Assembly: GCF_007475525.1 (NCBI RefSeq)
Contig: NZ_CP037899.1
Span: forward strand, 2,108,001 to 2,172,000
Length of the DNA stretch: 64,000 bases
Reading direction: 5' to 3'
Origin: Methylacidiphilum kamchatkense Kam1
GTDB taxonomy: Bacteria > Verrucomicrobiota > Verrucomicrobiia > Methylacidiphilales > Methylacidiphilaceae
The stretch's first letter is position 1. Each line of letters opens with the position of its first letter. The position numbers were made by a program, and so were the translations under genes. Shown in pieces: positions 78-60,382 of the stretch. Under the pieces are notes generated by a model. That model saw nothing but the letters and a program-made list of their open reading frames with translations, did not search any database and had not been told where the DNA came from.

Positions 78-812
78 CTATTGTTCTTGGCCCTTTTTCT
101 GTTCTAACAGGCAACTAACTATAAGAGACCAGACAATATAACAACACATTGCAAAGGGAAGCTGCAAAGCCAAAGGCATCGCAAAAAGAAATGTAGTAGC
201 GGGGATCCAAATGATCCAATTAGAAAGAAGCAACGGAGTTCCTTCTTTCATATATATCAAGGGATTCCAACATTTCCAAAATGGGAAAAACTGATATCTA
301 GCTTCTTTCCACTTGAAAAGAGCCATAATAAAAGGGAGCCAAAAAAAAGGAGTATAAAGGAAATTGTCTACAAAAACCTTGCAGATAATCCCATGAAATG
401 AAGGTTCCTCACCAAAAAGCAAGCCAACCGCTTTAAAGACATAGTTTGAAAAGAAAATACTGAGTCCAAAAATAAAAGCTTTGTAAACCGAGGACTCAAG
501 ATGGTAATACCGGACTTTGCCTTTTTCCCATACTATCACATGTAACAATACTGCAAGGGGTCCGCAGCAGATCGCATTGACACTAACTGTAAACCAAATC
601 CCTTTTTCTCTGTTTAAACGTTCTAGATGCTCCAGTAATTCCTTAACTTTCCATCCCTGATAATAACCAATCGTAAGAAATGCAACAAAGATGCCGATAA
701 TTAACGCTGGCAGAAGATTTTCTTTAAAGACTGCTTTAATCTCCCCTTTCTTTTGAGAACACCAATCTGAAAGAAAAGAATGAGTGTTTTCCCTACTAAA
801 GGCCATATCCAT
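78..812 (-). CDS. Mpv17/PMP22-like integral membrane protein
   Basis: A predicted 244-residue, very hydrophobic protein with about five membrane segments (near residues 30-50, 70-95, 110-135, 150-170 and 195-235). The C-terminal half has the layout of the Mpv17/PMP22 family: a K..DN....P start of one helix, then an aromatic-rich loop and a final pair of helices with NW..W.P. That family match is from memory and tentative. An open frame runs on upstream to 1052, but that part overlaps the aldehyde dehydrogenase gene in another frame. I therefore start at the ATG at 812, 13 bases after the dehydrogenase stop; the ATG at 806 is equally possible. It is probably the last gene of the leftward cluster. 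Function in bacteria is unknown. Confidence 0.55.
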   Translation of the reverse strand: MDMAFSRENTHSFLSDWCSQKKGEIKAVFKENLLPALIIGIFVAFLTIGYYQGWKVKELLEHLERLNREKGIWFTVSVNAICCGPLAVLLHVIVWEKGKVRYYHLESSVYKAFIFGLSIFFSNYVFKAVGLLFGEEPSFHGIICKVFVDNFLYTPFFWLPFIMALFKWKEARYQFFPFWKCWNPLIYMKEGTPLLLSNWIIWIPATTFLFAMPLALQLPFAMCCYIVWSLIVSCLLEQKKGQEQ

Positions 813-825
813 TTGGATTTTTCGC

Positions 826-2322
826 TTAAAGCTGCACGCAGACCGATTTTGTTTGGAGGTAATTTTCCAAAACTTCATGTCCCATTTCTCTACCCCAGCC
901 TGATTGTTTGTACCCTCCAAAAGGAAGGGCTGGATCATCAACATTATAGCAGTTGATCCATACTGTCCCCGCTTTGATCTTTGCAGCAAGCCGATGAGCC
1001 TTGGAAATGTCTCTTGTCCATATCCCTGCAGCCAAGCCATAGATAGTCTCATTAGCCATTTTGATCAAATCTTCTTCCTTTTCAGCATCAAAAGGTAGGG
1101 CGCAGACAACTGGACCAAAAATCTCTTCTTGATAAACCTTCATTTGCGCATGGACATTAGTCAGCAGAGTCGGAGCAAAAAAATAGCCTTTTTCTCCTAT
1201 TCTTACCCCTCCACAGCCTACTTCTGCTCCTTGGCGAATGCCCGACTGCACATATGAAGATACTCTTTGGAGCTGTTCGGCAGAGATCAAAGGACCAATT
1301 TGACTATTTGTATCAAATCCAGAACCTACCCTTAGCTCCTTGGCCTGTTGAGTTATGGCTTTTGTCAATTCCTCATAGATTTTCTTTTCAATGAAAAGCC
1401 GGCTCCCAGCACAACAGTTTTGACCACTATTTATAAAAGCCGCGTTTGCCGCTTCGCCAATCGCTTTATCTAAGTCTGCATCGGCAAAGATTATATTGGG
1501 GGATTTGCCTCCAAGCTCTAAGGTTAGTTTTTTTAAGTTCCCAACCGCTGCTCTCACGATGCTTTTGCCTACTTCTGTAGAACCCGTAAAGGCCACTTTG
1601 TCGATGCCGCAATGATTGGCAATCGCTGCCCCAGCAGGTTCACCAAATCCAGGAAGAATGTTCACAACTCCTTCTGGAAATCCCGCTTCCACAATCAACT
1701 CTCCAAGTCTAAGCGCCGTAAGGGGCGTTTGTTCTGCAGGCTTAAGAATTACTGTACAGCCCGTTGCTAAAGCTGGAGCCAGCTTCCAGGAGGCCATGAG
1801 AAGAGGATAATTCCATGGAATGATTTGTCCCACTACACCAATGGGTTCTTTTAATGTATAGGCCAAATAACGATTTGGACTAGCTAAAGAAAAGGGGATG
1901 GTGTTCCCTTCAATCTTGGTAGCCCAGCCAGCCATGTAACGGAACAATTCGATCGAAGCAGGAACATCCGAGCTTTTTGCAGCATGAAGCGGTTTGCCGT
2001 TGTCTAAGGATTCAATCTGGGCAAGCTCTTCGGCATGGGTTTCCATCAGGTCGGCAAGTCTCATCATAAGCTTAGAACGATCGGATGGAGATATCCTTGC
2101 CCATGTTCCATGTTCAAAAGCTTGCCTAGCGGCATTGACAGCCCGATCTACGTCTTCTTTTCTTGCCTCATATACTAAAGCAAGAATTTTTTCGGTTGCC
2201 GGATCATATGTCGGAAACGTATTTCCAGATAATGATTCTACCCATTTTCCATCAATTAACATTTTTTTTGGAGAATCTTTCAAAAACGTTTCTACTTCAG
2301 GCAATACAGTTCTATTATCCAT
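826..2322 (-). CDS. NAD(P)-dependent aldehyde dehydrogenase
   Basis: A 498-residue aldehyde dehydrogenase that oxidises an aldehyde to its acid with NAD(P)+ in the cytosol. Family landmarks are all present: the cofactor segment IPWNYPLLMASWKLAPAL, the FTGSTEVGKS loop, the general-base Glu near residue 269 (LELGGKSP) and the nucleophile Cys near 303 (GQNCCAGS). The length matches betaine/retinal-type dehydrogenases. The frame is open 18 codons further upstream, but the ATG at 2322 is preceded at 4 bases by a perfect GGAGGT ribosome site (2327-2332), which decides the start. The substrate cannot be read from the sequence; in a methanotroph it could detoxify aldehydes. It sits 40 bases after the glycosyltransferase gene, with a 15-base tandem repeat in between. 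Confidence 0.9.
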   Translation of the reverse strand: MDNRTVLPEVETFLKDSPKKMLIDGKWVESLSGNTFPTYDPATEKILALVYEARKEDVDRAVNAARQAFEHGTWARISPSDRSKLMMRLADLMETHAEELAQIESLDNGKPLHAAKSSDVPASIELFRYMAGWATKIEGNTIPFSLASPNRYLAYTLKEPIGVVGQIIPWNYPLLMASWKLAPALATGCTVILKPAEQTPLTALRLGELIVEAGFPEGVVNILPGFGEPAGAAIANHCGIDKVAFTGSTEVGKSIVRAAVGNLKKLTLELGGKSPNIIFADADLDKAIGEAANAAFINSGQNCCAGSRLFIEKKIYEELTKAITQQAKELRVGSGFDTNSQIGPLISAEQLQRVSSYVQSGIRQGAEVGCGGVRIGEKGYFFAPTLLTNVHAQMKVYQEEIFGPVVCALPFDAEKEEDLIKMANETIYGLAAGIWTRDISKAHRLAAKIKAGTVWINCYNVDDPALPFGGYKQSGWGREMGHEVLENYLQTKSVCVQL

Positions 2323-2335
2323 TGTTACCTCCAGA

Positions 2336-2365
2336 TCGTTTATTTTATTATCGTTTATTTTATTA
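2336..2365. repeat. 15-bp perfect tandem repeat (two copies)
   Basis: The unit TCGTTTATTTTATTA occurs twice in direct succession at 2336-2350 and 2351-2365. It lies just upstream of the ribosome site of the aldehyde dehydrogenase gene and overlaps the last codon of the glycosyltransferase gene before it. The extra copy lengthens the leader of the dehydrogenase by 15 bases, a multiple of three, so both copies stay open in the dehydrogenase frame. It could be a slippage site or part of a promoter; no function is shown. Confidence 0.6.
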
Positions 2366-3208
2366 TAACATTTCATTTATTATTCGTATAACCTCATTAG
2401 CCTTCTTGTAGTTACATGGTAATAGTTTACCGTTTTTATCTATACGGTCGTGATGATGAATAATATAAGGTTCGATTTCATCAGGTTTATAATAAGGATG
2501 AATTGGATACGCTGTTTGAAAATTCATTGATATAGGCAAAGGTTGTATCGGAATTTTTGTCTTTTGAAGCATGAGAGAAAAAGCTATTTCATCTGTATAA
2601 TAAGATTGTTTTTCAATCGTCTTAAATTTTGGATACGCTCTAATTAAATCATTAATACAGTTAGCCCATTCATTCTTTATAATGTCTACGTACATTCTAG
2701 GTATAATCAGCACACCAACATTATAATGCGGATATGTTAATTTATCGAGTGATTCCGTATTATATATTTTTAATGGTATTTCTAGATTATAATATTTAAA
2801 TAACTGAATATAATCTTCTAAGGAAAAAAGAGAAAGATAGTCATGATAATCTATTTTTGCAAGAACATGATACGATGTTATATATGATGAATAATCTCTA
2901 GCTATTACTATATCATTATCAAGTACTATAAGATAGTCATATTCCTTCTGTATTTCAAATATTCTCAGATTATTTGTGTGTGGATATTTGGCATTGAACG
3001 GCTTGATTATCTCAACTTCTACATCCATTTCCTGAAATACTTTTTGATATTCAGGACGAATCGTATTAACAAAACAGACCACTGCTGGCGATTTAGCAAG
3101 ACGTCCACCAAAAAGTCGTAAGCTTTTAAAAAGTATTTTACTTTTTTTATAATGCTCCTCGTTATTTTCCGCAACACAAGATATTAATATCTTTGAATAC
3201 GATTTCAT
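2363..3208 (-). CDS. Putative glycosyltransferase (GT8-like, DxD motif)
   Basis: A 281-residue soluble protein. A hydrophobic strand leads into LDNDIVI around residues 95-102, the DxD-type metal and nucleotide-sugar site of GT-A fold glycosyltransferases. Later motifs (YNVGVLIIPR around 160 and IHHHDRID near 250) resemble the arrangement in family 8 enzymes, where a late His binds the metal. It lies one base after the stop of the sugar aminotransferase gene, so the two are almost certainly one transcript and likely act on the same surface polysaccharide. The region is clearly more A+T-rich than the core genes nearby, as is common in polysaccharide loci that have been exchanged. Donor and acceptor are unknown. 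Confidence 0.55.
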   Translation of the reverse strand: MKSYSKILISCVAENNEEHYKKSKILFKSLRLFGGRLAKSPAVVCFVNTIRPEYQKVFQEMDVEVEIIKPFNAKYPHTNNLRIFEIQKEYDYLIVLDNDIVIARDYSSYITSYHVLAKIDYHDYLSLFSLEDYIQLFKYYNLEIPLKIYNTESLDKLTYPHYNVGVLIIPRMYVDIIKNEWANCINDLIRAYPKFKTIEKQSYYTDEIAFSLMLQKTKIPIQPLPISMNFQTAYPIHPYYKPDEIEPYIIHHHDRIDKNGKLLPCNYKKANEVIRIINEML

Positions 3209-3209
3209 T

Positions 3210-4304
3210 TTATCTCTTTAAGGCATTAACTATAATTTCACTGATTAGGTCTACCGTCGACACGGCAAGGTTATTATACAATGGCAGGCAGAGAATTCTT
3301 TCAGCTATATACTCGCTTACTGGACATATACTTCTTTTTTTCATAAAGGAAAGATGATTAAGTGAAGGATAAAAATAACGTTTAGGATATATCCCCCTTT
3401 CTTTGCATTGAGATACTATCCATTCCAGAATTCCTTTTTCAGGAAATATTACCGGATAATAGGAATAATTATATTGAGTTCTTTCTGCTATTTTCTGTTT
3501 TTTAATTGGCAAACCTTCTAAATTTTTATCATACCTCTCTGAGAGTCTTTTTCGTTCATTGATAATTTCTTTTACATGAATCAGATTGCATAATCCCATA
3601 GCCGCGTGCAATTCTGAGTTTTTTGCGTTAATTCCTAAACTGCATATCGCATATTCATCGGCAAAACCAAAATTCCTCATCATACGCAGTTTTCTTTCTA
3701 TTTCCTTTGATCTAACAACCAATGCTCCACCTTCAACAGTATGAAATATTTTTGTAGCATGAAAGCTAATAGTAGTGATGTCACCATAAGCAAATATAGG
3801 TTTATCATTAAAATAAGTACCGAAAGCTTGAGCTCCATCATAAATGATGTTTAATCCATATTTTTTTCCTATTTCTTCTATTTTCTCCACATCACACGGA
3901 TTTCCAAATATATGAGGAACCAGAATGGCGCTAGTTTTGCTCGTAATTGCTTCTTCGATTAAGGAAGTATTGATGTTCAATGTGTCAGAAAAAATATCAA
4001 CCATTTGTGGCTCACATCCTTCCCATAAAATTGCTGAGGTTGTAGCGATAAAACTAAAAGGAGAAGTAATAACTTCTCCCTTTATGTTCAAAACTTTAAG
4101 TGCAAGTTGTAAGGCGATTGTTCCATTTGAGACATATACGATATAATCTAAATTAAGATATTCTTTTAATCTAACCTCAAATTCTCTAACCATAGGTCCA
4201 TTGTTGGTCAACCATTCTTTTTCCCATATAAGTTTTAGATAAGATAAATAACGCTCTATTGGAGGTAAAAAAGGTTTTGTCACTGTAATATTCATATGCA
4301 TCAC
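3210..4304 (-). CDS. DegT/DnrJ/EryC1/StrS family PLP-dependent sugar aminotransferase
   Basis: A 364-residue member of the DegT/EryC1 family, which transfers an amino group to a nucleotide-linked keto-sugar. The PLP lysine lies in SFHATK near residue 185, and the Asp that holds the cofactor nitrogen is in DGAQAFG near 156. The N-terminal stretch with WLTNNGPMVREFE is typical of the family. Methionines at codons 1, 2 and 4 are all possible starts and none has a convincing ribosome site. It is followed after one base by a glycosyltransferase gene, which supports a role in making an amino-sugar (for example on a dTDP-keto-sugar from the rfbA/rfbB products) for a surface glycan. The exact product is not predictable. 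Confidence 0.85.
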   Translation of the reverse strand: MMHMNITVTKPFLPPIERYLSYLKLIWEKEWLTNNGPMVREFEVRLKEYLNLDYIVYVSNGTIALQLALKVLNIKGEVITSPFSFIATTSAILWEGCEPQMVDIFSDTLNINTSLIEEAITSKTSAILVPHIFGNPCDVEKIEEIGKKYGLNIIYDGAQAFGTYFNDKPIFAYGDITTISFHATKIFHTVEGGALVVRSKEIERKLRMMRNFGFADEYAICSLGINAKNSELHAAMGLCNLIHVKEIINERKRLSERYDKNLEGLPIKKQKIAERTQYNYSYYPVIFPEKGILEWIVSQCKERGIYPKRYFYPSLNHLSFMKKRSICPVSEYIAERILCLPLYNNLAVSTVDLISEIIVNALKR

Positions 4305-4781
4305 ATTATTAAAAATGTAGTTAATTTTATTGCTGAAAAATAAAAAAAATATTAAAAATTTTCTATATTATATATATGTAAGAATATTTTATATATATGT
4401 TAATATTTTTTACATACATTACATATACTTTTTATTATTCCTTGTTCAATAGATACCAACATAGCATACTGAAAAAAGTTATCATAAAGCTAAAAGATGA
4501 ATATTTTTTAATAATTAGTTAATGTCTTATTCATATTTATATTGCTTCTTAGATTGCTTAGTGAAAATTACAATTTAAGGAATCAATTAATGGCAAATGA
4601 ATTATTGGAAAGAACAATATAGTGCCTATTAGGAGACATACGAAATAGCGGGAAGTTGGATCAAAGATAAAAAATTAAAAGAAAGGATGAAATTTAGAGC
4701 CATACATTTCTAGTACTGATCCAGTTAGTCTTGAAGACAGGGAAGACAAAAAACATGGAAGAGTCAGAAAAGAATTGGTAC
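4305..4781. other. AT-rich intergenic stretch
   Basis: No convincing coding region. The first 150 bases are extremely A+T-rich, with several runs of alternating TA (around 4368-4400), and could hold the promoter of the leftward aminotransferase-glycosyltransferase pair. No terminator, tRNA or riboswitch pattern was recognised. Confidence 0.5.
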
Positions 4782-8586: not shown

Positions 8587-9728
8587 TGGGAAACGCCTTC
8601 TTTTGATTGCACTCTTAAGGCCGCAACCTCTTCAGTAATATCAATTCCAACAGGACACCAGGTTATACAACGGCCACAGCCGACACATCCAGACATTCCA
8701 AACTGATCAATCCAACTTGCCAACTTATGACTTAACCATTGCCTATATCTTGATTTTATCGATGATCGAACACTACCTGAAGGCAGATGGCTAAACTCCA
8801 TGCTATAACAAAAATCCCATCTTCTCCATCTTTCCGCTTTTTGTTCGTTTAAAGATACTGAATCTTCTATTGTCCAACAAAAACATGTAGGACAAACCAA
8901 TGTACAGGTTGAGCAAGCAATACATCTACTAGCAACATCATCCCAGCGGGAATGCTCCCAATTGTTATAAAATAGTTCTTTTATTCCCGCTGTATCCATT
9001 ACTTTTGTCATTTGAGTCTTGGCATTCTCAATAACACGAGCAGCAAAGAGAAGATCTTCTTCTTTTACATCTCTTAAAGGTAAAGAGCTGATAAGCTTTT
9101 CGCCTCTAGAGCTTCCAATTTCAATAAGGAAAAAGTGTTGTTGTTGATCAATACATTCTGTCAACGCCAAATCAAATCCTCCTTCTGCTTTAGGCCCCGT
9201 TCCCATAGACAAACAAAAGCAACAACTTGAAGATTGTCCACACTGAACTACAATGACAAAAGCCTCTTCTCTTCTTCTCACATAAGCCTTGTCTCGAGAT
9301 TTTCCTTCAGAGAATATCTTGTCTTGAATCAAAGCAGCATGAAGATCACATGACCTTACTCCTAAGAAGGCATATTTCTGTATTTGCGGATTTTCCTCAA
9401 CAAAAGTAAGACGGCCCGCTTTTTTATCAACCGTCAAGAGGCGTTGTCTTGGAGGAAACAAATATTTTTTCATGCTCTGAAAACCGACATTATAACCAAA
9501 AAGAGCTTCATCTGGTCGTCTTTTGATTTGGTATTTCCCCGCCTCTTGAATATCTGTCCATCCAATGGGTAGATCCATTTCGGATTGAATTTCTCCATAG
9601 CTAATCGCAGTCTCGCTCAACACAGGTCCAATGATGGTATATCCTTCTTGGTGCAATGCATCGATGAGCTTACCAAAATCTTGCCTTTGCAGTACCTTCT
9701 TTTTTTCTAAAAACATAATGTCAGCCAT
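8583..9728 (-). CDS. HydB-type iron-sulfur electron-transfer subunit, PFOR-linked copy
   Basis: A 381-residue protein of the sulfhydrogenase beta (HydB) family. An N-terminal domain carries [12 protein letters not shown] and [22 protein letters not shown]. The C-terminal ferredoxin-like part has two cysteine clusters, [14 protein letters not shown] and [17 protein letters not shown], which should hold two [4Fe-4S] clusters. It lies 11 bases after the dihydroorotate-dehydrogenase-like gene and overlaps the HydG-type gene by four bases, in an operon led by PFOR. By analogy with sulfhydrogenase it relays electrons to the flavoprotein partner. Here the likely electron source is ferredoxin or PFOR rather than H2 (inference). 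A paralogue of almost the same length is at 14474-15622. Confidence 0.85.
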
Positions 9729-9739
9729 TTCGGTTGAAT

Positions 9740-10774
9740 TTAGGTTGTTTTCTTTTTTTCTAAACCAGATATTGAAGGGCTCGGATAAACAGATAGGGCA
9801 TAAACATATTGGGCTCTTTCATAGCTAGAAGGATCCGTGCAATTTTTCTGACTCAAAATTCCCCTGATTGACTCCACTGAGGGATATCCTTTTTTTTCCA
9901 TCCATTCAATGATCCCATTTTTAATTGTTTTCAAATAATCTATGCCATGAAAAAGAAGTGCTGAGCAAAGTTGAACAGTTGTAGCACCTGAAAGAATGGC
10001 TTTCAAAGCGTCACTGGCAGACAATACCCCACCTGTTGCCGAAAAATCTAGCTTAATTCTATCGTATAAGATCCCTATCCAAGTAATCCTCAAAAGAAGT
10101 TCGTTTTCGGTACTGAGAGCAATTCTAGGTTCTACCTGCAAGTTTTCTAAATCAATATCTGGCTGGAAAAAACGGTTAAAAAGAACCAGGCCATTGATTC
10201 CTGTTTTTGCAAGCTCTGTAGAAAAGGATAAAATATTAGTAAAATAAGGACTTAATTTGACTGCAATGGGTATCTTTATAGATTGGCGACAGGCTTTGAC
10301 GATCTCTAAATATTTTTGTTCCAAATCGGAAGAACTCATAGCGGGATCACAAGGGATAGAATAAATGTTGAGTTCCAAAGCATCAGCTCCTGCTTGCTCC
10401 AAAAGCTTAGAAAACTTAATCCATTGCCCTGGACTTTGAGCATTTAAACTGGCAATTACAGGAATACTAACTGTTTCTTTGACCCGTCTTAAATGATCAA
10501 GATAGTATTCAGGGCCTATCCTTAATCCAGGGATTTCAGGAACATAACTTAAGGCTTCAGCAAAAGATTCGCTCCCTATTGTTAAGGATCTTTCCAAATG
10601 GAGGGCTTCGTTTTCAATATCTTCTTCAAAAAGGGAATAGAGCACTATGGCTCCTGCTCCGATTTCTTCTAAAGCCTTGACTGTATCTAATGATTTGCTC
10701 AGTGGAGAAGCTGAAGGAATAAGAGGAGATGACAACTGCAATCCCAAATAGGTTGTTTCTAAACTCACACTCAT
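9740..10774 (-). CDS. Dihydroorotate dehydrogenase-like flavoprotein
   Basis: A 344-residue TIM-barrel protein of the dihydroorotate dehydrogenase family (class 1-like). Opening motif LGLQLSSPLIPSASPLSKS corresponds to the FMN-binding start of the barrel; ELNIYSIP, IAVKLSPYF and a late ATGGV-SASDALKAILSGA segment supply the remaining FMN contacts. The usual catalytic Cys or Ser loop of true PyrD is not obvious, so pyrimidine synthesis is unlikely. Genes of this type are often found beside nifJ in bacteria, and here it follows PFOR by 18 bases and precedes the HydB-like gene by 11. I infer an electron-transfer or substrate-oxidising role coupled to the PFOR operon; the substrate is unknown. 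Confidence 0.75.
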   Translation of the reverse strand: MSVSLETTYLGLQLSSPLIPSASPLSKSLDTVKALEEIGAGAIVLYSLFEEDIENEALHLERSLTIGSESFAEALSYVPEIPGLRIGPEYYLDHLRRVKETVSIPVIASLNAQSPGQWIKFSKLLEQAGADALELNIYSIPCDPAMSSSDLEQKYLEIVKACRQSIKIPIAVKLSPYFTNILSFSTELAKTGINGLVLFNRFFQPDIDLENLQVEPRIALSTENELLLRITWIGILYDRIKLDFSATGGVLSASDALKAILSGATTVQLCSALLFHGIDYLKTIKNGIIEWMEKKGYPSVESIRGILSQKNCTDPSSYERAQYVYALSVYPSPSISGLEKKKTT

Positions 10775-17251: not shown

Positions 17252-18016
17252 ATGATGAAAAAGATAGCTGTTTGGAAATTTACATCCTGTGATGGGTGTC
17301 AGCTTTCCCTATTAGACCTTGAAGATGAGCTTTTAGAATTAGATAAAAATTTTGTTATCTCCTATTTTTTAGAAGCCAGCAGTCGGTCCCCAGAGCCACC
17401 TTTCGATATATCTCTTGTCGAAGGCTCAATAACTACCGAAGAGGCAAAAAGAAAAATCATCGAAATCCGAAACCAGTCTACCGTTTTGGTAACCATAGGA
17501 GCCTGCGCAACAGCTGGAGGCATTCAAGCACTAAGAAATTTCGCTTCTCTCCAAACAGCAAAAGAAAGAGTTTATCCCCACCCTGAACTCATTGATGTTC
17601 TTCCTACCTCTTTACCTATCTCCCAGTATGTACAGGTAGATTATGAACTCCAAGGCTGTCCTATCAACAAACAACAGCTCCTTTCTGTTTTATATTCCTA
17701 CTTACTTGGCTTCCGTCCATCTTTAAATTCTGGAAGCGTTTGTATGGAATGCAAAATGAGAGGCACTCCCTGTGTTATGGTGACTTCTAAGACACTATGT
17801 CTTGGCCCAGTAACTCATGCTGGTTGTGGAGCAATTTGTCCAAGCTTTGGAAGAGGTTGTTATGGCTGTTACGGACCAAAAGAAACACCGAATAGTCCAT
17901 CTCTTTCTCGATGGGCAAAAGAAAAATTACAGATTGAGCCTACTGCTTTAAAACAGGCTTTTCATACCTTTAATTGTATAGCCGATGGATTCAAAAGATT
18001 TGATGAAGAAGACTGA
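17252..18016 (+). CDS. hydD: [NiFe]-hydrogenase group 3b-type small subunit, HydD/HyhS
   Basis: A 254-residue electron-relay subunit that contacts the NiFe large subunit. It starts KIAVWKFTSCDGCQLSLLDL, where the Cys pair belongs to the proximal [4Fe-4S] cluster. GACATAGGIQALRNF and ELQGCPINKQQLL carry its other ligands. The C-terminal ferredoxin-like part (CMECKMRGTPC, CLGPVTHAGCGAICPSFGRGC) supplies further clusters. The missing twin-arginine signal and the overall length place it in cytoplasmic group 3b. The open frame begins at 17174, but alignment of the family start with KIAVWKF favours the paired ATGs at 17252/17255. It overlaps the large-subunit gene by 14 bases. Confidence 0.88.
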   Translation: MMKKIAVWKFTSCDGCQLSLLDLEDELLELDKNFVISYFLEASSRSPEPPFDISLVEGSITTEEAKRKIIEIRNQSTVLVTIGACATAGGIQALRNFASLQTAKERVYPHPELIDVLPTSLPISQYVQVDYELQGCPINKQQLLSVLYSYLLGFRPSLNSGSVCMECKMRGTPCVMVTSKTLCLGPVTHAGCGAICPSFGRGCYGCYGPKETPNSPSLSRWAKEKLQIEPTALKQAFHTFNCIADGFKRFDEED

Positions 18017-19297
18017 GTCACAAAAGATCCTTTCTGTTTCTGCATTGGCGCGAGTTGAGGGCGAAGGGGGGCTTTTCATTAAAATGAATAATGGGAAGGT
18101 CACAAGCTGCGAATTAAAAATCTTTGAAGCGCCCCGTTTTTTTGAGTCATTATTAATTGGCAGGAATTTTCATGAACCTCCTGACATTACTTCAAGGATC
18201 TGTGGAATCTGTCCTGTTGCTTATCTTATAAGTTCTATAGCAGCGATTGAAGATGCCTGTCAGGTGCAAATTCCTGAATATATCTGGAATCTTCGCCGAC
18301 TGCTCTACTGTGGGGAATGGATTGAAAGCCATAGCCTACATGTTTTCTTTCTTCATGCCCCTGGGTTTCTGGGATACCCAAGTCTTATGGAAATGGCGAA
18401 GGATTATCCTAAAGAGGCTGCATGGGCACTTCAGATGAAAAAGGCAGGCAATACTCTCATCCAGAAGATTGGTGGTAGAGAAATTCATCCTGTCAATGTT
18501 CGTATAGGGGATTCTATAGTTCTCCCAAAAAATTAGAACTTCGATCCCTTCTAGATACTTTAAAAAGAGGCTTGGACCATAGCCTATTAGCCTTACAATG
18601 GATAGGTTTGAAATTTAATTTTCCTGATTTCAAGAGGAATTATACCTATGTAGGATTAAAACATCCTAAGCAATATCCGATTGAAAGAGGGATAATCAGT
18701 TGTGAGGACTCTCAATTCGATGCCAAGGAATTTGAAAAGAATTTTATAGAAGAACAAACAACCTATTCCAATGCTCTTAGATGGAAGGCTACCAATTCTC
18801 GATCCTGTCTTGCTGGTCCACTGGCTAGATACCATTTAAACTATTCTTTGTTCCCTGCTTTTTTAAAAGAAAAACTGAAAGAAATTGACTTGGAATATCC
18901 CTGCCATAATCCGTTCCAATCTATACTAGTCAGATTAGCAGAAATTGCCTATGCTTTCTACGAAGCCATAAGGCTTATAGAAGATTATGAACCTTTCTCT
19001 CCTTCTTTTATTCCCTTTGATCCGAATCCGCAAACTGGTTATGGAATTAGCGAGGCTCCACGTGGCCTTCTATACCACAAATATGAACTTGACGATAAAG
19101 GTAGCATTAAGAAAGCAAAAATTGTTCCTCCTACCTGTTTTAATCTAGCATCTGCAGAAGATGACTTAAAAAAGTGGATCGAAACCCATTCTGAAGATTC
19201 CATTGAAAGATTGACGCTCGATTGCGAGCAAATCGTTCGAAATTACGATCCTTGTATATCCTGCGCTACTCATTTTCTAAAACTCCACTTTAGGTAG
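18003..19297 (+). pseudogene. hydA: [NiFe]-hydrogenase group 3b-type large subunit, HydA/HyhL, interrupted by a -1 frameshift
   Basis: Catalytic subunit that binds the Ni-Fe(CN)2CO centre. The first part (to TAG at 18534-18536) has LARVEGEGGLF and the N-terminal nickel ligands in RICGICPVAYLIS. The second part (another frame, on to 19297) has SCLAGPLARYHLN, GISEAPRGLLYHKY and the C-terminal ligand motif DPCISCATHFL. After the His a short tail remains for the maturation protease. The parts meet at six A (18527-18532) directly before the stop; one more A would give PKKLELRSLL and a 431-residue protein of normal family length. All four nickel cysteines are kept. A -1 slip on A AAA AAT could also bridge it. 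The ATG at 17985 is an alternative start. Confidence 0.88.
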
Positions 19298-26820: not shown

Positions 26821-28931
26821 TTATTTTTCTGCTATTATTTGTAGTTTTTCTTTTCCTACAAACACCCATATTCCTTCTCTATAATATGATTTTGAAGAAT
26901 CTACATAAAAGGGCACAGCATTTACTGAAAATTGACTCCTTCCATAAGTGGTTCTAATAAAAGAGGAAAATGGCAGTCGATGGTTTTGGCGGGACCCTAG
27001 CGATTGCTCAATCAATAAGTCTATTTGTAAGTCGTTGATGGATGAATAGTTATAAGTAGAAAGCGATCGAAAAAATATTTTTTTATTTTTTATTCCTATT
27101 AAACATTGTATCTCCCCTCGATTGGTCCCTCGAAAGAACAACCGCAAGCCTTCGGGATCTTCTTGTCCCGTCCACCATTGGTTACCTATCGACTTTTCAT
27201 TATAGAACCATTCTCCATTTCGGAATGTTAAAGAGGGGGAGTTGTACGGAAAAAATAAAGCTTTTTGTAGGATTGGCAGGAGACGCTCTTCTTCCCATGG
27301 CTGTAAGGAATTAACTATGAAATAATTTTTCTTATTTTGTATTGCTAAAAAATAACCGGATTGTGCATGGGCTACATACAGCCATGAGTCAAAAGGATGG
27401 GATAAGATTTTCAGATCTGGTACGGAAAGTATTGCTCCTGGAATTTTGGTAGACGAATGAACCACTGCTAGTAATACCACCAGGAACATATATGTAATTT
27501 TGTTTAACATGGAAGCCAACAAACCTGAAACAAAACCACCCACCGCTGCCAGAGAACCTAGCAGTACGATAATTTCAGCAATAGGAACCGCTATGATGTT
27601 GTAGAAAATCCCTAACCAGCAGATGGAATGAAAGATGCAAAACTCCCATGGCCAGGCTCCTAGCCAAGCGGAGAGTGAAGTTGATAAAAGAAGGCAAAAG
27701 GATTTTCCAATCCGATCAATAACTTGCTTGCCTACCGGTGCCAGTTCCAAAGGCAAATAAGGATCCAATTTAAAAAAACTATAAAATAACTGAAAAAGTG
27801 GCTTTGAAAGAAGCAATAATGCCAAAACAACTGAATAAGAAAGTTCTAAACTTGCATCCATTATGGAAAGAGGCTCAAAAAGCAAGAACAGAAGAAGAGT
27901 AAAAGCCCAGCAATTAAGCCCGCTAACCTTCCTTCTGAGAAACCAACCGATGGTACAATAAACAGCAGCGGAGAAAGCACGGAGAACACTGGCACTGCTT
28001 CCAGATACCATACTAAAAACAAAAAGGACTGGAATAAAAACGAGCGAATATTTCCATCGATTGTTTCCTGTATATTGTAACAAAAGGATCCAAAACCCTA
28101 GCATTATTCCTACATTCTGACCGCTGACGGCAAACAAATGATAAGTCCCGGCTCGTTTGAAAGCTAAAGCATCCTCTTGGTCAAGTCCAGAAACATCCCC
28201 ATAAATCATTCCACAGAGCAGCGAATGGGCTTTAGGATCTTCAATACCAAGGGAAAGATTCTTTTTTACCTTTTTTCTTATTTTCTCGATCCAAGACCCA
28301 AGGCTCTTATTGGAATCATCCGTGTAAAAAAAAACTTATCCTTACTTAACAATTCAAAACTTATTCCTTTTTCCACCATATAGTTGTAAAAGTCGACTTC
28401 TCCAGCATTACTCTTTTTATGTGGCAAAATTATTTTTCCACTTACCGTAATTAGCTGTCCAAGATGGATTGTACCCTGCCAATCTTCCACTCTACATAAG
28501 ACTTTCCCCTTCATTGGGAACCACTTCTCCCCAGATGCGATTGCCTTGAGATTCAAAAGAAAACAGGTGGCTCTCTCTTTTTGTTGAGGGAAACTGGACA
28601 CATAGCCTAAGCAATGGAGACTTTGGAACGCTGCCAACTTTTCGTGAAGCATGACCATTTCTTTTTCTGCCAGATACCTATGGACGCTACAATTGAGTAG
28701 TCCGAGAAGAAAAAGGCTACAAAGACAAAACATTTCGCTAAAGAGCCGATTGCGACTAGCTTGACGCCACAAAGATAGGGAAAAAACCAGGCTGCCCAGA
28801 AGAAGTCCTACATTGAACGTTCCTTGAGCACCAAGATAACAACCTGTAGCAAAGATAATAGCAGGGAAAAAAAGAGGAACCTTTTCCTTCTCTTTCCTAT
28901 CCATTCCCTCGTTTTGTGCTTCGAATACCAT
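26821..28931 (-). pseudogene. comEC: ComEC/Rec2 DNA-uptake channel, frameshifted
   Basis: DNA-translocation channel of natural transformation, split over two frames. The 5' part (28931-28278) encodes the N-terminal membrane and OB-fold-like region (DUF4131). The 3' part has RAGTYHLFAVSGQNVGI, the ComEC channel hallmark, plus about ten membrane helices. The break sits at nine A on the plus strand (28326-28334). One extra base reads straight through DDSNKSLGSWIEKIRKKV and DPKAHSLLCGMIYGDVSG into the second part, about 703 residues in all. The roughly 190 residues after the channel lack the HxHxDH metal motif of the beta-lactamase-like domain in many ComEC proteins. The gene may be intact in the cell. 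Confidence 0.82.
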
Positions 28932-56634: not shown

Positions 56635-57606
56635 CTATTCCAATGCATAAAATTGTAGGTAGCCTCCCCATGAAGATTGATACAAACGTCTTACTCCAGG
56701 AAGAGGGTTGGCAATGGAAGTAGTTAAAGGCAAAAGTCTTCCAAGTAGGCTTTCTTTCGCTTTTTTGTCCGCTCTCCAAACCAATATGTCATGCGAAGGC
56801 AGTTCTTGGATCATATATCCAGCAGATTCCTTCTCATTGACCCATTTCATAACCATAGGAATCAATCCATGGATGTCTGTTCCGGCTCTTGGAAAGACTC
56901 GCCAATCATATCCCATCGATTGAGGAGATTGGCCAAAAGCCAAAGCCAGATTAGAAATGTCTTCAGTAGTAATGCATAGATAGAGGGGACGGCTCTGCGG
57001 TAAGGCTTTTTTCAAAATTTCCAATCCTTCCACAGCATTGGCAGCATAAGATTTTGCTAAAATGCTCAATCGATTTGTTTCTTTTGGAGCTCCAAACATT
57101 TCTTCAAGCATCTTCAATCCATCTTTTGGGATTACTGTCGAATCATAGCTTTCAATCCATATTTCCTTTCCTGTAAAGAGTTTTAACCTTTGTGAGACAT
57201 CCCACCACCCTATGAAAAGAGCATTGGATGGAGCATGTGCGTTAACCGATCGCATGGCCTCTATCCATATCCGATTGAGCACATCGTCAATTTCCGAACC
57301 AATCGGTTTTGGAGGAAAAACCCTAGCAAAACAGCTCGTATTTTGCGAGTCGAGATATTGTGCGATCCAAAAATGGCCTTTATTTCCAAAAGCATAATGC
57401 CAATACTTTTGGACTGGGAAGAATGTAGGCAAGGATAGAAATTGGGAGTCCTTCGTTTCAATTTTAATCAAGGGTTCACGTTTTTTTTCGTGATTGCTCC
57501 AAAGGCTTTGGAGGATTAACACAATCCCACCAGCAAATAGAATCAATCCCCAAAAAACTGGTCCTCTTTTTTTTAGAAAAAAATTTTTAGTTTCTTCTGT
57601 AGGCAA
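56635..57606 (-). CDS. haoB: HaoB, hydroxylamine oxidoreductase-associated protein
   Basis: A 323-residue protein, one N-terminal membrane helix (PVFWGLILFAGGIVLILQSLW) then a large soluble domain predicted outside the cytoplasm. Its position 30 bases behind haoA, plus its WWDVSQRLKLFTGKEIWIES-type aromatic middle and general layout, match HaoB of ammonia oxidisers and methanotrophs. HaoB is thought to help mature or anchor HAO, but its mode of action is not established. There is no haem motif (CxxCH). The identification rests mainly on position and size. Confidence 0.75.
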   Translation of the reverse strand: MPTEETKNFFLKKRGPVFWGLILFAGGIVLILQSLWSNHEKKREPLIKIETKDSQFLSLPTFFPVQKYWHYAFGNKGHFWIAQYLDSQNTSCFARVFPPKPIGSEIDDVLNRIWIEAMRSVNAHAPSNALFIGWWDVSQRLKLFTGKEIWIESYDSTVIPKDGLKMLEEMFGAPKETNRLSILAKSYAANAVEGLEILKKALPQSRPLYLCITTEDISNLALAFGQSPQSMGYDWRVFPRAGTDIHGLIPMVMKWVNEKESAGYMIQELPSHDILVWRADKKAKESLLGRLLPLTTSIANPLPGVRRLYQSSWGGYLQFYALE

Positions 57607-57636: not shown

Positions 57637-59784
57637 TTACTTTTTTTTCCTTTTATTCCCAAAGCTTTTCCCAAAAGATGAACTTAAAAGGATGATCCCA
57701 GCACTCGATCCAATAATACCAAATAGGAGTTTTGCTTTACTAGATAAAAGAGAAGTATGATCTCCTGTTGAAAGCTGAGATTCATGAGGTCTATTTCTTA
57801 ACCTTGTATTTTCATCCATAATCTCCGTATATCTTTCAAGCAATACACTCCAACCAGCCGAATAAGTAAAACCTCCAGGATTGGCATGCATGACTCCCTT
57901 ATAGTGTTGAATCATGTCATGTTCCCACATATTAGCATACACTCGTTCAACATGACTTGGATTGTTTCCCTTAGCCCAAAAAAGCTGGAAAAAAGCACCA
58001 GGAGCGTCCTTTTCGGGAGGGGGAGGGACAGGACGGTTCGTTTTTTGTCCAACCAACAGTCCATCCTTATAAAGAGCTTCGATAACTTTTTTTGCTTCTT
58101 CCTGAACTTTTAATCCATCAAAGATCGCCTGATCGGCTGTCTCTAACCATTCTCCTGCAAACCGAGCAGAATGGCAAGCCGAACATGTGGCTATCCAATC
58201 TTCTTTCCTTTGTTGGTACCAAGGCTGTTTTTCCTTAATGCCCTGGGCAATTTCTGGGGTGGGATTAAAGGCCCAACGGACTTTTCTTACCAAATTGTGG
58301 CTGTACTCCCCATGATATTCAAAATGGCAACTCGCACAGGTTGGAGCAGTATATCCACCCTTGGCGATAGCATCTTTTAAAGGAACATCAAAATTCCAGT
58401 TCTTAGCTTGAGCCTGAAAAATGGTCCCATGCTTTGAAAGCATGTAATTTTCAAATTCATTATGGTCCACTCCATTATGACAGGTTGCACATGAAAGAGG
58501 ATTACGGGCCTCTGCAGCTGAAAAACTATGCCGTGTGTGGCATCCATCACAGCGATTCTGTTGATAATGACACATATCACAGCCTTGAGCTACAGCTCTT
58601 TCAGACATGGCTGCCCAAGCTGCCAAGTTCACATTTGCTTCCCAATCTACAGCATGAGAGGGATGACCTTGAGGCCATTCATTATGAGGCCACTTTTGTT
58701 TACGTTCCGATTCTGATTCAGCAAATTGTCGCACATGACAACTACCGCATGTCACTCTATCAGGCATATGAAGATCGACATCATGGCGTATTTTCTGTGC
58801 ACCTATGGATCCATGACAGTCGATGCAAGAGACTTCTTTAAGCTGCTCATGATTTTTGAGTATTCCTTGAGAGTGAAGCTGTTTTTCCACCTCTGCTAGT
58901 TCCTTCTTTTTATAAGCTTTAGGGTCCTGATCCGAGAGTTTTCTTATTGCCTCAAGATTGCCATGTATACTGTTTTCCCAAGCATGAAATACTCCTGGGG
59001 TTACTGTTTTATGGCAGGCCAAGCAATCAGAACGACTGACCTCGCCTTTGATACTTTGAGGCGGATGATAAAAGTTTTTTGGATTCCAATACATTTCCAT
59101 AGGGATTGGTTCCCAATACTGCGCATGAATTCCTTTCCCTGGATGAGAGGCGTCATAATTTTTTATTAGCTCTTTGAGATCTTCTTCCGGCTTCTTGACG
59201 TAGGAACTAGAAAGATTGTGAGGTCTTAAAGCTAAAACAGCTGAAGGACTCAACACTTTTTTTCTTTCTTTCTTAATATCATCCAGACTGATGAATGACT
59301 TATCGGAAGCCAGTTTTTCTTTGTTGCCCCAGGCAGATAAAACATAGTTGAGGACATCAACTAGCTGTTGATCATCGAATACTTTTCCCCAACCAGGCAT
59401 TGATCCGTCGTATTGTTGAGTACCGACTTGAATGGGACCTTCAAGACCATAGAGCACGACATCGATAAGATATTCTTTACCATTTTTTGAGTTTACAATA
59501 TTCGGCACATGTCCCACAAGAGGGGGATAAGATCCGACTAATCCTTGTCCACTTTGTTGATGGCAACCAATACAACTCCGGCTGAATAGTTCCTGACCAC
59601 GAATAAATTCCTTTTGTTCTTTTTCTCTAGAAAGCGGGGGCTCTTCAGTCAGTACATACTGTGTAGTGAGATTTTGCAACCATTGATCCAAAACAATTTT
59701 CCCCTGAGTAGTGGTTACTTGAGCAACAAGATTGCTCAAAGAACAAAATAAGAGAAAAAAAAGAAAGCCAAATGCCCATCTCAT
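57637..59784 (-). CDS. haoA: Hydroxylamine oxidoreductase with N-terminal cytochrome c domain and C-terminal membrane anchor
   Basis: A 715-residue multihaem cytochrome. After a signal peptide (1-21), residues about 60-155 form a class I cytochrome c (CIGCH at 71, Met ligand likely in GSMPGW). The HAO part follows with eight CxxCH: near 254, 330, 346, 402, 412, 432, 483 and 534, so nine haems in total. Signature segments are GYTAPTCASCHFEYHGEYSH, VGQKTNRPVPPPPE, LFWAKGNNP and HANPGGFTYSAGW. The last holds Tyr641, a candidate for the cross-link to the catalytic P460 haem. A C-terminal helix (about 685-700) and Lys-rich tail should anchor it. In methanotrophs HAO turns toxic hydroxylamine into NO. 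Confidence 0.92.
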   Translation of the reverse strand: MRWAFGFLFFLLFCSLSNLVAQVTTTQGKIVLDQWLQNLTTQYVLTEEPPLSREKEQKEFIRGQELFSRSCIGCHQQSGQGLVGSYPPLVGHVPNIVNSKNGKEYLIDVVLYGLEGPIQVGTQQYDGSMPGWGKVFDDQQLVDVLNYVLSAWGNKEKLASDKSFISLDDIKKERKKVLSPSAVLALRPHNLSSSYVKKPEEDLKELIKNYDASHPGKGIHAQYWEPIPMEMYWNPKNFYHPPQSIKGEVSRSDCLACHKTVTPGVFHAWENSIHGNLEAIRKLSDQDPKAYKKKELAEVEKQLHSQGILKNHEQLKEVSCIDCHGSIGAQKIRHDVDLHMPDRVTCGSCHVRQFAESESERKQKWPHNEWPQGHPSHAVDWEANVNLAAWAAMSERAVAQGCDMCHYQQNRCDGCHTRHSFSAAEARNPLSCATCHNGVDHNEFENYMLSKHGTIFQAQAKNWNFDVPLKDAIAKGGYTAPTCASCHFEYHGEYSHNLVRKVRWAFNPTPEIAQGIKEKQPWYQQRKEDWIATCSACHSARFAGEWLETADQAIFDGLKVQEEAKKVIEALYKDGLLVGQKTNRPVPPPPEKDAPGAFFQLFWAKGNNPSHVERVYANMWEHDMIQHYKGVMHANPGGFTYSAGWSVLLERYTEIMDENTRLRNRPHESQLSTGDHTSLLSSKAKLLFGIIGSSAGIILLSSSFGKSFGNKRKKK

Positions 59785-59878: not shown

Positions 59879-60382
59879 TTAGAAGAAGTCTTCGGTTTTT
59901 GTTTTCCATCCATCTTCCTCTTCAATCATTTCTCCCTTGAAGGCTCTAGATTGCCATTTTTGCCCATATTCTTTTTCTATTTGTGATATCTCCTTCCCAC
60001 TTTTTTTTGCTTCTAGATTATAGAGGATTTGTCTGTCACGATTTTCCTCGTCAACGATTTTTTGAATATAATTTCTGTATTCTTCATCTTCAGTGCTCTT
60101 CACTATGTGAAGATAGCCATCTTTTCCTTCTCCAATCATTCTGTTGTTTTTCAATGCTTGAATTTCACCCATTCTCATTCTTCGCCTTTCCTGAATGGAA
60201 TGATAAGAATAGAAAGGTTGCTGAATAGGAGGGCTTTTTACATTCACAGAAGCATTAACATCATAAAGCTTGGGTTGCTTGGGAGATATTCGCACAGAAC
60301 GACAGCCGTTTACTATGAGGAGGAAAACAAAAAATACCCCAATCCACAAAACCTTAGCCCTATATTCACTCTCTGAGCCCAT
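59879..60382 (-). CDS. DUF1318 (YdbL-like) lipoprotein
   Basis: A 167-residue protein with a lipoprotein signal (FFVFLLIVNGC, lipobox Cys near 27). The mature part has MIGEGKDGYLHIV, then the Glu-Asn-Arg-Arg-type helix VDEENRDRQILYNLEAKK and WQSRAFKGEMI, matching the DUF1318 family of small periplasmic proteins of unknown role (YdbL in E. coli). It is 94 bases upstream of haoA on the same strand and so may be co-transcribed with it; whether it helps HAO is unknown. Confidence 0.7.
   Translation of the reverse strand: MGSESEYRAKVLWIGVFFVFLLIVNGCRSVRISPKQPKLYDVNASVNVKSPPIQQPFYSYHSIQERRRMRMGEIQALKNNRMIGEGKDGYLHIVKSTEDEEYRNYIQKIVDEENRDRQILYNLEAKKSGKEISQIEKEYGQKWQSRAFKGEMIEEEDGWKTKTEDFF

Follow-up and report, generated by a model that had tools for sequence, protein, structure and literature searches.

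A nine-haem hydroxylamine oxidoreductase with an N-terminal Thermus-type cytochrome c552 domain in Methylacidiphilum kamchatkense Kam1

Classic hydroxylamine oxidoreductase (HAO) has eight haems. The Nitrosomonas enzyme (NeHAO; PDB entries 4fas, 1fgj and 6m0p) contains the P460 cofactor and is accompanied by the separate cytochromes c554 and cM552. Among methanotrophs, the HAO of Methylacidiphilum fumariolicum SolV was reportedly purified by Versantvoort and colleagues in 2020. The purified SolV enzyme (mHAO, Mfumv2_2472) makes NO and shows P460 (PMC9500659), with a Km of 1.4 uM (PMC11928373). Cytochrome c552 of Thermus thermophilus (1c52, 2fwl) is a free soluble donor to the ba3 oxidase, whose CuA takes electrons from it (PMC3141039), and PDB entry 2fwl contains c552 and the CuA subunit together. 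Precedents for a cytochrome tethered to its partner are provided by the three-domain NirK of Ralstonia (PMC6278305) and, within the genus considered here, by XoxG:J (PMC6688271). Here we describe an HAO that carries a c552 domain in the same chain. It is encoded in the window, by which we mean the whole 64,000-nucleotide stretch analysed (positions 2,108,001 to 2,172,000 of contig NZ_CP037899.1) from the volcanic methanotroph M. kamchatkense Kam1, whose genome of 2,202,032 bp is a single contig.

The haoA gene occupies positions 57637-59784 of the window, as given in a first-pass annotation of this DNA, and is read from the minus strand; 26 stops interrupt the plus strand of this interval. A motif scan of the 715-residue product found nine CxxCH motifs, beginning at residues 71, 254, 320, 346, 402, 412, 432, 483 and 534. 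Pfam places a Cytochrome_CBB3/Cytochrom_C domain at residues 62-152 and a Multi-haem_cyto domain (E 1e-138) at residues 316-585 of this single chain. When the full protein was compared with PDB sequences by phmmer, Thermus c552 matched residues 66-187 (E 3e-29) and NeHAO (4fas) matched residues 198-706 over nearly its entire length (E 3e-162). The motif, Pfam and PDB evidence thus bears out the initial description of nine haems with a class I cytochrome (CIGCH, Met ligand) placed ahead of HAO in one polypeptide. A two-sequence AlphaFold2 run (Kam1 and Methylacidiphilum sp. Yel) returned a mean pLDDT of 30.9 for HaoA, too low to be of use.

Residues 1-22 (59719-59784, minus strand, as for all HaoA features below) form a likely Sec signal peptide, judged from hydropathy; the hydrophobic helix ends in LVAQ, with the cleavage site placed by eye between VA and Q, and this segment has no good lipobox. 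The fused class I cytochrome, of Thermus c552 type and with its C-terminal extension, covers residues 61-190 (59215-59604) and includes the CIGCH motif at 71-75 (59560-59574), which would attach the extra, ninth haem, and Met129 (59398-59400), the predicted axial ligand. A linker of about 25 residues (191-215; 59140-59214), delimited by alignment and a start-codon scan, leads into the octahaem HAO core (216-665; 57790-59139), which is 50% identical to NeHAO. A hydrophobic helix at residues 686-704 (57673-57729; Kyte-Doolittle mean 1.86) is followed by a Lys/Arg-rich tail (GNKRKKK). Leaving haems uncounted, the fusion has a predicted mature mass of 78.3 kDa and the core by itself one of 59.5 kDa. 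That the two parts belong to separate genes, or were joined by misassembly, was ruled out by the five unbroken orthologues in Methylacidiphilum.

The fused arrangement might nevertheless serve co-delivery only, the N-terminal domain being cut off after export to give a separate soluble c552. Protease processing is invisible in sequence, and residues vary freely ahead of the c552 domain and in stretches of the c552/HAO linker, as such processing would allow. Against this stand the shortness of the linker and the start-codon scan of haoA, which revealed no second signal-like segment and no well-placed start after the linker, so that the HAO core would enter the periplasm only within the fusion. 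We regard cleavage as very improbable.

We aligned the five Methylacidiphilum proteins with NeHAO and the HAO of Ruegeria pomeroyi DSS-3, which is encoded on a megaplasmid beside HaoB (SPO_RS20840). The eight CxxCH motifs of the core occur in conserved order, and 16 His columns of NeHAO are invariant in all seven proteins, eight within CxxCH motifs and eight elsewhere; by comparison with NeHAO, the eight histidines outside the motifs would comprise the distal ligands of seven bis-His haems and, as the eighth, the active-site His268. NeHAO Cys229, Cys232, His233, Asp267, His268 and Tyr467 are all conserved, corresponding to Kam1 residues 402, 405, 406, 440, 441 and 641. The CDMCH motif at 402-406 (58567-58581) accordingly aligns with the catalytic haem 4 (P460), Asp440/His441 with the distal Asp267/His268 pair, and Tyr641 (57862-57864) with Tyr467, which cross-links the P460 of the neighbouring subunit. 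The distal Tyr334 of NeHAO is replaced by Asn507, a substitution that each of the five Methylacidiphilum HAOs shares with Ruegeria. Since the equivalent residue is Met in Kuenenia HAO (PMC9500659), Tyr334 is not required for an oxidative HAO. Judged by these residues, the Methylacidiphilum HaoA core is a genuine oxidative (P460) HAO, and because Tyr641 is conserved the usual cross-linked trimer is expected. The proposal in the first-pass annotation that the protein is unlike the trimeric enzyme of ammonia oxidisers is therefore not supported. The C-terminal anchor proposed there stands as far as a hydrophobic segment is concerned but does not clearly set the protein apart from NeHAO, which also ends in a hydrophobic stretch (Kyte-Doolittle mean 1.45). 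The differences from NeHAO are Asn507, the c552 domain and the separate c554 and cM552 of Nitrosomonas. The Ruegeria core is 54% identical, but that protein has eight haems and lacks both the c552 domain and the C-terminal hydrophobic helix. SolV mHAO shows no architectural difference from the Kam1 protein, with the same nine haems and 94% identity over its full length.

In a PDB search the fused domain matched 1foc, 2fwl and 1c52 (E 9e-30), and CIGCH and Met129 align with the haem ligands of the Thermus protein; the methionine of Thermus c552 aligned with Met129 is Met69. The alignment spans residues 8-124 of the 132-residue c552 chain, C-terminal extension included, with 47% identity by tblastn. 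In a tree of 47 cytochrome domains restricted to Deinococcota and Verrucomicrobiota and including the free cytochromes of Kam1, the c552 proteins of Thermus and Deinococcus and the five fused domains form one group with support of 100/99, from which 39 verrucomicrobial domains stand apart. Within this taxon sampling, the tree suggests that the domain was acquired by transfer from Deinococcota. It also rules out a recent copy of one of Kam1's own cytochromes. On a plasmid of T. thermophilus JL-18 we noted that genes for a nitrite reductase and a member of the cytochrome P460 family adjoin a c552-type cytochrome (104-4376 of the extracted locus), which is another nitrogen-oxide setting for the c552 family.

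The nine-haem fusion is present as an unbroken ORF in all five Methylacidiphilum genomes examined (Kam1, SolV, Yel, G072 and V4). Among 387 Verrucomicrobiota genomes, the protein was found only in Methylacidiphilum at a threshold of E 1e-60, and a search within the family detected HAO in 5/5 Methylacidiphilum genomes and in none of eight others, in agreement with the literature, where HAO is limited to this genus within the family (PMC8498564). The other genome contigs scanned contained a relative only in Methylacidiphilum sp. Yel, and a scan of viral contigs revealed none. The c552 domain is absent from NeHAO, from Ruegeria HAO and from those HAO-like proteins of Kuenenia that have PDB entries. 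In the comparison proposed at the outset, the M. fumariolicum SolV protein thus shares the domain and the Nitrosomonas enzyme lacks it, and the novelty first claimed for the fusion does not survive: the domain is present in every Methylacidiphilum HAO examined, including those of M. infernorum V4 (2008) and the purified SolV enzyme. The novelty of the architecture is therefore limited: public genomes have contained it since 2008, and the enzyme purified in 2020 has it too. Neither a ninth haem nor a fused cytochrome is mentioned for Methylacidiphilum HAO in the literature searched, an open-access subset outside which the 2020 purification paper falls. The point matters because methanotroph HAOs as a whole are modelled on the purified SolV enzyme, which contains a domain absent from the HAOs examined outside Methylacidiphilum.

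Evolutionary rates indicate that the domain is maintained. Its dN/dS is 0.13-0.27 in three close pairs and 0.105 between G072 and V4, and Fisher tests gave p values from 1e-3 to 1e-19, with p < 0.002 in all four pairs; on the segment preceding the domain, constraint failed to reach significance in two of the close pairs. As these ratios indicate purifying selection, the c552 domain is functional, and its persistence as a neutral relic is ruled out. Constraint is looser than on the HAO core, which has dN/dS of 0.04-0.07 and a three- to fourfold lower rate of evolution; this difference could mean that the role of the domain is itself a looser one. One such role would be that of a structural, docking or stability module for high temperature and low pH, with the haem off the main electron route. 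The faster evolution fits this, as does the fact that within the data set examined only thermoacidophiles carry the fused domain, but all five species retain the haem motif, the Met ligand and the residues of the haem pocket, which speaks against a haem off the main route. We therefore think a purely structural function distinctly unlikely.

The first-pass annotation had also suggested that the fused haem replaces cytochrome c554. We found no match in the Kam1 genome to the c554 (PF13435) or NapC/cM552 (PF03264) families; the PF13435 model does match one control genome. The HURM composition (HAO, c554 and cM552) does not occur in Kam1. The absence of both families is thus upheld, but replacement does not follow from it: the hydroxylamine:ubiquinone module is reportedly missing from methanotrophs as a group (PMC8498564), so the absence of c554 is not by itself tied to the fusion. 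Because methanotrophs are without the nitrifier relay of c554 and cM552, the question arises of what accepts the electrons of their HAO.

For Methylacidiphilum we propose the following route. At haem 4 of the HAO trimer, hydroxylamine would be converted to NO; the electrons released would run along the bis-His haems to the tethered c552, whose haem would in turn pass them, at the membrane, either straight to a terminal oxidase or to a soluble cytochrome. On the evidence of domain identity, conserved ligands, selection and fixation of the fusion in the genus, the c552 domain of this P460-type HAO is somewhat more probably than otherwise a tethered electron exit to the respiratory chain. A comparable arrangement exists in Ralstonia NirK (4ax3/3ziy), where a class I cytochrome is tethered as redox partner to a trimeric N-oxide enzyme; the cytochromes are only weakly homologous (E 3e-14), and NirK differs in that the fusion is C-terminal, the enzyme contains copper and electrons flow into it.

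A Thermus-type ba3 oxidase would be a good candidate acceptor. Kam1 oxidase subunits I and II have their best matches in Thermus ba3 (1ehk_A, E 2e-126; 1ehk_B, E 5e-27), and, as far as homology can assign them, both partners of the Thermus c552/ba3 pair are encoded in Kam1, the c552 side within HaoA; the cytochrome is free in Thermus and here fused to an enzyme. Other free cytochromes c are encoded in the genome as well, and Methylacidimicrobium has a ba3 oxidase (PMC8498564) without HAO, so that ba3 does not depend on HaoA as donor. We consider ba3 a possible but doubtful target of the tethered domain. The full proposal would be that HaoA is a self-contained donor of hydroxylamine electrons to a cytochrome c oxidase, in which a Thermus-type c552, once captured, links the HAO trimer to ba3 independently of quinone and saves these electrons in an organism without c554 and cM552; we put it forward tentatively, and with slightly less confidence than its ba3 component. 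Physiologically, toxic hydroxylamine formed by methane monooxygenase acting on ammonia would be cleared and part of its electrons saved. The tethered c552 would offer a concrete route in a lineage living with millimolar ammonium, and it predicts an energy gain and not pure detoxification.

The c552 domain might instead supply chiefly soluble cytochromes or the NO reductase (NorBC), HAO-made NO being converted to N2O nearby, with ba3 not a partner. HAO makes NO that needs removal, SolV expresses haoA together with norB and norC (PMC5623727; PMC3404531), and the free c-type cytochromes of the genome could also accept electrons. In none of the loci read is haoA linked to norBC, however, and cytochromes of the c552 type, to which the fused domain belongs, are known to donate to ba3. 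We judge this destination unlikely, though less so than a structural role.

The haoB gene, for the hydroxylamine oxidation protein HaoB (56635-57606, minus strand; NCBIfam TIGR04392, E 6e-68, above cut-off), begins 30 bp downstream; a gene of haoB size is found at the matching position in SolV, V4 and G072, and an annotated haoB also follows haoA in Ruegeria. A DUF1318 protein (Pfam PF07027, E 7e-16) is encoded 94 bp upstream (59879-60382, minus strand), and the DUF1318 gene adjoins haoA in 4/4 Methylacidiphilum genomes examined. About 4 kb from haoAB is a gene for a 561-residue cytochrome c assembly protein (PF01578; 51937-53622, minus strand), and the Ruegeria haoAB genes are likewise near cytochrome c maturation genes. 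No RNA family was detected near haoA, and promoter and terminator scans there were at chance level. In SolV, haoA is separated from the DUF1318 gene by some 1.3 kb of additional DNA (9447-10694 of the SolV locus), which contains short overlapping ORFs, is absent from Kam1 and is possibly an insertion or repeat element.

Two further genes of the window are divided in Kam1. The NiFe hydrogenase large subunit (PF00374), which adjoins small-subunit and Fe-S genes, lies in two plus-strand frames (17985-18536 and 18572-19297), but is one open frame of 435-449 residues in the other four Methylacidiphilum genomes; the split may be either a real loss or an assembly error. A ComEC-like competence protein is distributed over two minus-strand ORFs (26821-28209 and 28278-28931) comprising Competence and DUF4131 parts. 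The Competence part occupies the same 504-residue frame in Kam1, SolV and Yel and lies within one frame of 703-720 residues in G072 and V4; given the shared 504-residue frame, the ComEC split looks inherited.
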